NCBI GenBank assembly: GCA_019057635.1
Contig: DXJL01000099.1
Span: 1 to 48,567 of the forward strand
Reading direction: 5' to 3'
DNA length: 48,567 nt
DNA from: Candidatus Heimdallarchaeota archaeon
GTDB lineage: Archaea; Asgardarchaeota; Heimdallarchaeia; Hodarchaeales; Hodarchaeaceae
The translations under genes were made by a program, and so were the position numbers. How positions within the stretch are numbered: position 1 is the first letter of the stretch; each line of letters opens with the position of its first letter. Below the pieces are notes generated by a model. It made no database searches. It worked only from the letters and a program-made list of their open reading frames with translations, and was not told the origin of the DNA. Of this stretch, positions 19,739-41,056 are shown one piece after another.

Positions 19739-20692
19739 GTGAAAGAATTTCCAAGAAAGCGTATTCCAATAGTTATTGTCGGGCTAGAGTTTGCAGGTAA
19801 AACATCGTTTGTATTACGGCTTCAAACTGGTGAATTTAGAAGTACACTTCCGACATCAGGACTCGATACAGAAATTTTGGAAATTCAAGATACAATTTTT
19901 CAGCTATTTGATTTAGGGGGACACAAACGTTTCCGACAGATGTTCTGGAAAGAGTATGTAAAACTTTCACAAGGAATCGTCTTTATGATTGATTCCAGCG
20001 ATCTTGAAAAACTTAACGACGCGGTGGAGTGGCTTTGGAAATGTTTAGAATGGAATCCAGAAGCTCCTCTCATGATCTTGGCCAATAAAGCCGATTTAAC
20101 TCATATAGAACTACCAAAATTGATTGATAAGGTCAATCTTCGGAAATTACCTCATCAAAGCCCCACACGATCGTTCCAAATATTTGAAATTTCTGTAAAG
20201 ACTGGGAAGAATATCGGTCGTGCATTAAATTGGTTTTCTCAAAAAATTGCTATTTCTATGTCAAAGAAATTTATAAAACTTGAAGGAATATATCTATTTC
20301 TCCGTACAGGAGTTCCTATAGTTTCTCATTTATTCATGAATCAACCTGAAGAGTCTATGAGTAATGACATTGTACCAGGATTTTTAAATGCGATTGATGA
20401 ATTTGCAAGTGGCATGATGGGAAGTGGTGAAGGCTTAAATTCTATATCGACAGAAAATTATTCCATAGTAATGGTTAAACGGGACACACTTCTATGTGCA
20501 ATTATTACAGATAAAAATTCGGATCTTTCAATTGCTCGAATGGTAGCTGAATCAGTAGTCAACCACCTCGAGAATGCTTTCCCGTACCAACTATCCAAAT
20601 ATCTTGTGGATGGAAAGTATCTCTTTCCAAAGAATTTTGTTGTAGATTATCTTCAACAGGAATTTAATGAGAATGTAGTTTTTTCTACTTGA
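19739..20692 (+). CDS. Arf/Sar1-like small GTPase fused to a longin/roadblock-like domain
   Basis: The first 175 residues form an Arf-family GTPase: G1 GLEFAGKT (15-22), switch I threonine in PTSGLDTE (38-45), G3 DLGGHKRFR (58-66), G4 NKAD (116-119) and G5 SVKTGK (152-157). DLGGH is the Sar1-type form of the motif. From about residue 181 to 305 an additional alpha/beta domain follows (GIYLFLRTGVPIVSHLF ... YSIVMVKRDTLLCAIITDK ... VNHLENAFPY), whose strand-strand-helix pattern fits the longin/roadblock fold used as GTPase partners. No N-terminal myristoylation glycine is present. Start is GTG. Stop codons of this gene and the converging lipoate ligase overlap by 8 bases. A GTPase with a built-in partner domain is unusual. 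Confidence 0.8.
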   Translation: MKEFPRKRIPIVIVGLEFAGKTSFVLRLQTGEFRSTLPTSGLDTEILEIQDTIFQLFDLGGHKRFRQMFWKEYVKLSQGIVFMIDSSDLEKLNDAVEWLWKCLEWNPEAPLMILANKADLTHIELPKLIDKVNLRKLPHQSPTRSFQIFEISVKTGKNIGRALNWFSQKIAISMSKKFIKLEGIYLFLRTGVPIVSHLFMNQPEESMSNDIVPGFLNAIDEFASGMMGSGEGLNSISTENYSIVMVKRDTLLCAIITDKNSDLSIARMVAESVVNHLENAFPYQLSKYLVDGKYLFPKNFVVDYLQQEFNENVVFST

Positions 20693-39111: not shown

Positions 39112-40251
39112 CTAAGCATTTTCTACAACTAAATAAGGGAAGGATTGATGTAGTAGCAGGTCTAATTCTTTTGCTAGTTCCACAGTATCTACTATAGGTT
39201 CATTTATTTGTTGATTCAATTCATCAGAAATCGATGAAATAAAACGATCGATAGAATGTTTGAGAAAAAAAGTCCCTTTTGCTGCAATAACAGCTAATGT
39301 TCCCTGTTTATTGGGCATTTCTGAGAAAAATATCTGATAATTATTCACATCAATTTTAAGTAGTATTGAATCTGTTCCAAGAGTTTCTTTAATTAATGAT
39401 GCTATCGCGGTAAACATACCAGAAATTAATTGCTTCTCAAGAACAAGGTTGATTCCAGGGATTTTAACAGTTCGGGAATAGACCAATAATCCTGATGAGC
39501 TGTAAATTAAAAAATCATGTACAGGAACAGGAAGTCGATACACATAGTCCTTGTAATACAAGTAAGTTATCATCAAAATTAATACACCTACTAAAGCAAG
39601 AATTTCGGCTATTCGATCGGATGCTACAAGTGCAGAGTTATTTGCTTCAGAGGCAAGTCCAGCTACCCGGATGAGAGCGGAATTAAATTGTAGAATAAAA
39701 GCAAAAAGCAGAATAACTAAAGCAAGCAGCTCAAATGATGTAGTTTTATCACGCATCAGTTTGTAAGATTTATACGTAACAAATAATGCGAAAGAAACTG
39801 CAAGTAATCCAGTTAATGCGTAAGTAAGGAACATAAAGCTTTCTAAATCTTGTACGGGTTCATTTTGTCTGACTGCTAGAATTAGAATGGAGGCCGTAAT
39901 TGTTAGTATACTGATCATCGTTCCTTTTCGATAGAAAGGTGGAGCAATATTAGAGAGTGCTTCATAATGTAAATAGACGAAATACATTGCTAGACTCATT
40001 ATAATACGGACTAAACCTTGAATTATTCTTGATTCAGTATTATATGTATAAAAGACTAAAATGAAGACTAATAGCTGGAAAAAAATTCCAAATCCAACGA
40101 ATAAAAACCCGAGAAGTAAATGAGGCGTATATCTTTCTTTTTTAATGGTTTGATAAATCAGTAGAGCCATAAAGCTAAATGAAATGCAAACAAATATCGA
40201 TAAAATGATAATCCCTTGAATGACTTCTTGCGTCAAAATAGATTCCTTCAA
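39112..40251 (-). CDS. 7TM protein with C-terminal longin/roadblock-like domain
   Basis: A 379-residue membrane protein. Seven hydrophobic helices span about residues 12-230. The soluble C-terminus (about 237-379; VHDFLIYSSSGLLVYSRTVKIPG ... LKIDVNNYQIFFSEMPNKQGTLAVIAAKG ... ISSISDELNQ) has the strand-strand-strand-helix pattern of longin/roadblock-type domains and resembles the extra domain of the Arf-like GTPase at 19.7 kb, including a final FPYLV. It may act as a membrane receptor for a small GTPase. The frame ends in TAG, but the same frame continues for 36 codons with acidic then basic residues to a TAA at 39004, which raises the question of readthrough. Confidence 0.7.
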   Translation of the reverse strand: MKESILTQEVIQGIIILSIFVCISFSFMALLIYQTIKKERYTPHLLLGFLFVGFGIFFQLLVFILVFYTYNTESRIIQGLVRIIMSLAMYFVYLHYEALSNIAPPFYRKGTMISILTITASILILAVRQNEPVQDLESFMFLTYALTGLLAVSFALFVTYKSYKLMRDKTTSFELLALVILLFAFILQFNSALIRVAGLASEANNSALVASDRIAEILALVGVLILMITYLYYKDYVYRLPVPVHDFLIYSSSGLLVYSRTVKIPGINLVLEKQLISGMFTAIASLIKETLGTDSILLKIDVNNYQIFFSEMPNKQGTLAVIAAKGTFFLKHSIDRFISSISDELNQQINEPIVDTVELAKELDLLLHQSFPYLVVENA

Positions 40252-40492: not shown

Positions 40493-41056
40493 ATGCTAGT
40501 TATGAAAGTATTAATTTTAGGTGATGGAGCTGTTGGCAAAACATCACTTAGACACCGCTATATGGGAAGGGGATTTAAGGCGACTTATCTAATGACAGTC
40601 GGAGCCGATTTTGTCGTCAAGGAACTGACTCATCAGGATGGAACCGCTGTAACTTTACAAATTTGGGATATCGCTGGGCAAGGTATGTTTGAAAGTCTAC
40701 GTTCAACATTTTACCAAGGAGCAGTTGGGGCTCTAATGGTTTATGATGTAACTCGACCCAATACACTTGAAAATGTACCTAAATGGATAGGTGAAATTCG
40801 AAAACACCATCAAATTGAGAATTTTCCTATAATTCTGATAGGAAACAAGATAGATCTACGTGAATCAATTTCGGGCTGTATTTCCACCTTTCAAGGTGAA
40901 AAATTAACTAAAACTCTTGAAAGTGAGTTTTATCATGAGAAATGGAGAATACCTTTCATTGAAACCTCAGCTAAAACTGGTGAAAAAGTGGAGGATGCGT
41001 TTGTAAATCTTAGCAGGGCAAGCATAGAGTTTTATAAGCAGACTAAAGAAATTTAG
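40493..41056 (+). CDS. Rab/Ras-type small GTPase
   Basis: A 187-residue small GTPase with every core motif: G1 GDGAVGKTS (10-18), switch I threonine in LMTVGADF, G3 WDIAGQGMF, G4 GNKIDLRE and G5 TSAKTG. WDIAGQ is closer to eukaryotic Rab (WDTAGQ) than the GTPase at 22.8 kb. A stretch of about 12 extra residues (ESISGCISTFQGEKL) follows G4. The C-terminus (FYKQTKEI) has no cysteine, so no prenyl anchor. It lies beside the divergent 7TM-longin gene, a plausible functional partner since longin and roadblock domains often regulate such GTPases. Confidence 0.92.
   Translation: MLVMKVLILGDGAVGKTSLRHRYMGRGFKATYLMTVGADFVVKELTHQDGTAVTLQIWDIAGQGMFESLRSTFYQGAVGALMVYDVTRPNTLENVPKWIGEIRKHHQIENFPIILIGNKIDLRESISGCISTFQGEKLTKTLESEFYHEKWRIPFIETSAKTGEKVEDAFVNLSRASIEFYKQTKEI

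Follow-up and report, generated by a model that had tools for sequence, protein, structure and literature searches.

The question raised by this locus is whether a small GTPase of a Hodarchaeales genome, encoded within the 48,567-nucleotide stretch of DNA analyzed here (the window), carries its partner domain in its own chain, and what such a fusion would say about the function and origin of Arf-type switches. Asgard archaea fuse Arf-type switches to longins, domains by which eukaryotes regulate switches of this kind and which they mostly place on separate chains, and the occurrence of the fusion in Asgard therefore points to GTPases and longins that cooperated before eukaryotes. The gene and its N-terminal half comprise the following features:

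19739..20692, plus strand: Arf-like GTPase with a longin domain at its C-terminus (317 aa; GTG start; coordinates include the stop)
19739..19762, plus strand: N-terminus MKEFPRKR, 8 residues ahead of strand b1, without an Arf-type amphipathic helix and without Gly2
19754..20248, plus strand: Arf-type G domain, residues 6-170 (Pfam PF00025, E 6.3e-33; PDB Arf1 and Asgard ArfR structures)
19781..19804, plus strand: P-loop GLEFAGKT, residues 15-22 (from sequence; G15, G20 and K21 invariant)
19850..19861, plus strand: switch I PTSG, residues 38-41 (T39 invariant, with D58 19 residues further on, a spacing also found in Arf1 and Sar1)
19910..19924, plus strand: switch II DLGGH, residues 58-62 (H62 replaced by Q in close orthologs)
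20084..20095, plus strand: NKAD, residues 116-119 (from sequence and alignment)

The reading frame is complete, extending from the GTG at 19739 to the TGA at 20690-20692; an ortholog (L008) has an ATG at the position of the GTG, and no alternative start codon was found between it and the upstream stop. Identity reaches 94% with a Heimdallarchaeota B3_Heim homologue and 80-85% with genes of three Hodarchaeota genomes, while genus-level orthologs match over their full length at 94-53% identity, with the gene order PGM-like, fusion gene, LplA-like (lipoate-ligase-like) retained down to 56%. Both domains are under purifying selection, with dN/dS values of 0.05-0.24 for the G domain and 0.07-0.13 for the C-terminal domain. 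With the window protein as query, matches were obtained in 57 of 57 genomes of the class, many spanning both domains in frames of 300-340 aa, and two-domain matches also occur beyond the class (G082, G095, G128 and G089), their longin tails confirmed at E 1e-12 to 4e-7. The fusion is thus real and conserved rather than a product of chance, and a search for it in Asgard genomes, the check proposed by an earlier, sequence-only reading, yields full-length relatives throughout the class and in Asgard classes beyond it. The neighboring genes (sugar nucleotidyltransferase, phosphoglucomutase-like and lipoate ligase-like) point to no shared function, and none is an operon partner that would indicate a pathway.

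The first half of the chain had been read as a complete Arf-type G domain, an assignment that holds. The domain scores 114 bits against the Pfam Arf model, whose curated cut-off is 22.3; all five nucleotide-binding motifs are present, SVKTG at residues 152-156 included; and among 18 aligned sequences GxxxxGK[ST], PTxG, DxGG and NKxD are invariant or nearly so. The top PDB matches of the family profile are the Asgard ArfR structures 8OUL, 8OUN, 8OUK and 8OUM (E 7e-46 to 5e-43), and Foldseek, run with the full-length model, superposes its G domain on those of ARF1, HodArfR1 and GerdArfR1. Furthermore, the interswitch, counted from the switch-I Thr to the switch-II Asp, is 19 residues long in 52 of 54 fused proteins, in ARF1 and SAR1A and in 12 single-domain proteins, against 23-24 residues in the four Rab-like proteins in which it was measurable. 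By the sequence measures of Pfam score, motifs and short interswitch, the domain belongs to the Arf family. In Sar1, His replaces Gln in DxGG[QH], a replacement that is fixed across the family. The Sar1-like character previously attached to DLGGH was dropped, the motif being an unstable mark that reads DLGGQ in close orthologs (L010 and L013).

Arfs are characterized by an N-terminal amphipathic helix and by myristoylation of Gly2, and in ordinary Arfs the binding of GTP shifts the interswitch, thereby freeing the helix. Both hallmarks are absent from the window protein, in which 8 residues precede b1 and no start lies upstream. According to a review, archaeal ArfRs have the same rearrangement of the N-terminal helix as Arfs (PMC12554972). 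Two more Arf-type fusions in the same genome, on contigs C189 (L036) and C101 (L037), open with an amphipathic stretch (MSSILRRIFKG.. and MSLLKRLFRRR..), as do the four fusions from outside the class (for example MGVKNILKRIFTKEKK.. and MGLFSFLKRSTKNK..). The missing helix is the variant feature of the window clade relative to other fused clades and to single-domain Arfs.

The C-terminal region had been described as a second alpha/beta domain of about 125 residues; a folded domain is indeed present, although its length, at about 140 residues, slightly exceeds that estimate. Its features are:

20267..20689, plus strand: longin domain, residues 177-317 (AF2 models, Foldseek, profile searches)
20369..20419, plus strand: longin helix a1, IVPGFLNAIDEFASGMM, with the motif GFLxAIxxF
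Longin elements within it, by residue: b179-188, b193-198, a211-227, b235-237, b241-247, b251-258, a263-280, a282-291 and an extra a300-308

The whole-chain AF2 model has two domains (mean pLDDT 81, pTM 0.76). Because this full-length model returned only GTPases in Foldseek, the C-terminal domain was modelled separately, giving a mean pLDDT of 80 and the order b-b-a-b-b-b-a-a, which is that of the longin fold, plus one more helix; the input alignments for AF2 were shallow, with 15 and 18 sequences. Searched against the PDB with Foldseek, the domain matches AP2 sigma, VAMP7, COPI zeta and Sec22b (TM 0.64/0.71), with E-values down to 2.7e-5, whereas LAMTOR3, MglB and Asgard roadblocks match over fewer columns (about 100) than longins do; LAMTOR and Ragulator chains, including PDB 6ehr ('LAMTOR-RagA CTD-RagC CTD'), are also among the matches. 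A roadblock/LC7 domain has a helix ahead of b1 and a single C-terminal helix. In the AF2 model, the window domain has no extra N-terminal helix beyond the last helix of the G domain and ends in three helices. A roadblock assignment, considered on account of a weak MAPKK1_Int/LAMTOR3 Pfam match (18 bits for MAPKK1_Int against a cut-off of 25), was not preferred to longin, given the element order and aligned length.

Profile searches agree with the fold. In hhalign, window-type tails match standalone Asgard longins at 97% (E 5e-11, an E-value for a single pair), and a profile of 15 diverse Asgard longin relatives, the window domain included (profile A3), matches TRAPPC1 at E 1.2e-6, followed by Bet5 (0.007) and MON1 (0.01). 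Pfam Fuz_longin_1 matches 9 of the 15 relatives, the best at 2.9e-5, with the case listed slightly below the curated cut-off, while phmmer of the C-terminal domain alone against the PDB returned nothing useful. The GFLxAIxxF motif of a1 is common to fused, standalone, TPR-linked and membrane-linked Asgard longins and is looser in TRAPPC1. Altogether, fold search, profile search and conservation support the assignment well: the domain is a longin, as had been proposed in part, and its nearest eukaryotic kin are of the TRAPPC1/MON1 kind. A conserved Trp in the final helix of the G domain and the Gly in the initial turn of the longin (W165-G191) lie 26 residues apart in 26 of the 26 family members measured; a linker of fixed length therefore joins the two domains, and in the AF2 model about 4 residues lie between the end of the last G-domain helix (174) and the start of longin strand b1 (179). 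This constant spacing and the pTM of the model, from which alone domain packing was judged, suggest that the two halves are rigidly coupled.

Lacking the N-terminal helix, the window protein would need other means of localization and read-out. The longin most readily suggests itself for this role, since longins associate with one another and bind GTPases. In the roadblock fold, which is related to the longin, a1 mediates dimerization (PMC10933270); the first longins of Mon1-Ccz1 and of Fuzzy-Inturned contact their GTPase directly, and those of Mon1-Ccz1 bind Ypt7 and remodel its switch 1 (PMC12383261). Longin pairing, GTPase binding and the correspondence of the a1 helix make docking or dimerization through longins the best supported reading, and we somewhat favor a two-domain GTP switch in which the longin half serves as a platform for docking or dimerization with other longin proteins. 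In such a switch, the N-terminal Arf-type G domain would bind and hydrolyze GTP, its two switches and short interswitch changing shape, while the longin, held on a short linker of fixed length, would provide the platform in cis. The conserved a1 helix and the sheet may pair the longin with itself or with the standalone, TPR-longin and membrane-longin proteins of the cell, such that a longin-bearing scaffold or membrane receptor would read out, or set, the nucleotide state of the Arf domain. In ordinary Arfs localization falls to the amphipathic helix; within the window clade this role would pass to the longin. We consider it doubtful that the longin of this clade, standing in place of the helix, senses the Arf interswitch toggle, with GTP exposing or hiding a longin surface. 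An Arf switch that works in this way, through protein docking, is not described in the papers examined. The window clade, with a longin and without a membrane helix, offers a test case of whether a longin can replace the Arf helix.

The main rival to docking or dimerization is regulation of exchange in cis, whereby the longin would touch the switches of its own chain, or of its dimer partner, and act from within the protein as exchange factor, inhibitor or GAP helper. TRAPP and Mon1-Ccz1 longins and MglB do likewise in trans, and the first longins of Mon1/Ccz1 remodel switch 1 of their GTPase (PMC12383261); by sequence, the longin family comes closest to the GEF subunits TRAPPC1, Bet5 and MON1, with Fuz_longin_1 in addition; and the length of the linker is fixed. 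However, the known longin GEFs are heterodimers working in trans, and the few residues between the G-domain helix and b1 restrict the reach of the longin to its own switches, so that such autoregulation is a tentative prospect, albeit one to be taken seriously. Action in the manner of Rag/Gtr, with an obligate dimer of C-terminal domains scaffolding a signaling complex, is improbable. In eukaryotic Rag/Gtr GTPases, a single chain comprises the G domain and, C-terminal to it, a roadblock domain. These GTPases share with the window protein the order of parts, a G domain followed by a domain of the longin/roadblock class, and they contradict the earlier premise, as does the match to 6ehr, that such partners are always separate chains in eukaryotes. 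Similar fusions of MK-D1 have moreover been classed as Rag-like on structure (PMC10933270), and LAMTOR and Ragulator chains appear in the Foldseek matches. Against this stand the Gtr1_RagA model, which reaches 17.7 bits with a cut-off of 22 and covers the G domain only, the failure of the C-terminal domain to align with those of the genome's own Rag-like proteins (hhalign 0.1%), and the Arf-type interswitch; where Rag/Gtr proteins combine a Rag-type G domain with a roadblock, the window protein combines an Arf-type G domain with a domain of longin order, and the C-terminal domains have no sequence link. With the score below cut-off and the C-terminal domains unrelated, membership of the Rag/Gtr family was rejected; this evidence counts against family membership and not against the dimer mechanism.

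Two further explanations fare considerably worse. An SRbeta/SRX-like pair joined in one chain, acting in membrane protein targeting, draws on the match of the Pfam SRbeta model to the G domain at 9e-14 and on SRP-alpha_N, which matches 1 of the 15 longin relatives at 0.03; but the Arf model, at 6e-33, is far ahead of SRPRB, neither the chain nor its neighborhood has a transmembrane or ribosome/SRP link, and TRAPPC1 and MON1 come first among the matches of the longin relatives. This makes it very unlikely, and the SRX hint of the sequence-only reading is left unsupported, SRX being at best one among many longin-fold matches. That the C-terminal region is something other than a longin, or a disordered tail, is scarcely credible: by itself the domain rises above no Pfam cut-off, longin models included, yet the confident AF2 fold with its longin order, the fold search, the profile search and purifying selection all oppose this view.

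Returning to the origin of Arf, on which the fusion had been expected to be informative, a tree of 75 G domains gathers the window clade as 23 rows, all fused, from four families of the class (support 97/84), and places ARF1 and SAR1A with single-domain Asgard Arf proteins instead (support 97/96, on a weakly rooted tree in which SAR1A has a long branch). The fused state requires at least two changes on this tree. Vargova et al. reportedly defined ArfR, in 2025, by grouping with the clade that contains eukaryotic Arf/Sar. An ancestral position of the window clade to eukaryotic Arf is not supported, the grouping being the opposite; given the arbitrary root and the long SAR1A branch, the tree makes a fused ancestor of eukaryotic Arfs less likely.

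Nor is the class of fusion new. Five longins fused to Arf-like GTPases were reported for Lokiarchaeum in 2016, according to the statement in PMC4917890 that cites its ref. 23, and in MK-D1, 26 of 74 GTPase sequences are joined to roadblock or longin domains, and many in the Rag-like class had borne an Arf annotation (2024 structural paper, PMC10933270). As described in these sources (PMC4917890, in the statement just cited, and PMC10933270), the Arf-like GTPase-longin fusions of Asgard have the same Arf-like G domain and longin in one chain as the window protein, in which the absent N-terminal helix is the variant feature. With the class on record since 2016 and ARF1 placed among single-domain relatives, the window fusion by itself leaves the picture of Arf origin unchanged. 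The Asgard ArfRs of known structure (PDB 8OUK-8OUN) resemble the window protein in the G domain, the Arf motifs and the short interswitch; they are single-domain proteins with an N-terminal amphipathic helix (PMC12554972), whereas the window protein lacks the helix and carries a longin in addition. The closest eukaryotic sequence relatives of its C-terminal domain family, the RabGEF subunits TRAPPC1/Bet5 and MON1/CCZ1/FUZ, are proteins of their own that act on Rabs in trans, in contrast to a longin fused to an Arf-type GTPase.

Longins and GTPases also meet in other arrangements. Longin domains were found in 115 of the 119 Asgard genomes searched, as standalone proteins of about 145 aa, as the C-terminal part of chains with TPR-like repeats and of MFS-like and other membrane proteins, as an N-terminal addition to a Ras-like GTPase and beside an HTH domain. 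The genome of the window has a standalone longin on contig C150 and a TPR-longin on C19. Loci with the longin in varied contexts are L056, L058, L059, L061, L079, L081, L084, L090, L091 and L092; the longin seems to be a docking module of general use in Asgard archaea. Within the window itself, a membrane protein with several hydrophobic stretches (39112..40251, minus strand) matches the same longin family over its C-terminus, residues ~240-379 (E 2.8e-4), and forms a divergent pair with a Rab-like GTPase (40493..41056, plus strand), an arrangement that suggests a membrane longin receptor with its cognate small GTPase.

Clustering of such genes was likewise observed. In one family of the class, a single 20 kb region (L093, G034:C6:12500-32400) holds four Arf-like GTPases whose C-terminal domains are long, alongside response regulators and large proteins of PAS/histidine-kinase-like type, and match positions suggest similar clusters in G022:C107, G033:C4, G053:C48 and G038:C18. 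Several Rag-like GTPases with C-terminal roadblock-like domains occur in the genome of the window (G000) on contigs C12 (L040), C192 (L039) and C48 (L043); on C12, a span of 8 kb contains three. Finally, Arf-like-longin proteins of 431-436 aa in two genomes (L096 in G012 and L097 in G013) are extended at the C-terminus by about 100 further residues, which are highly charged.
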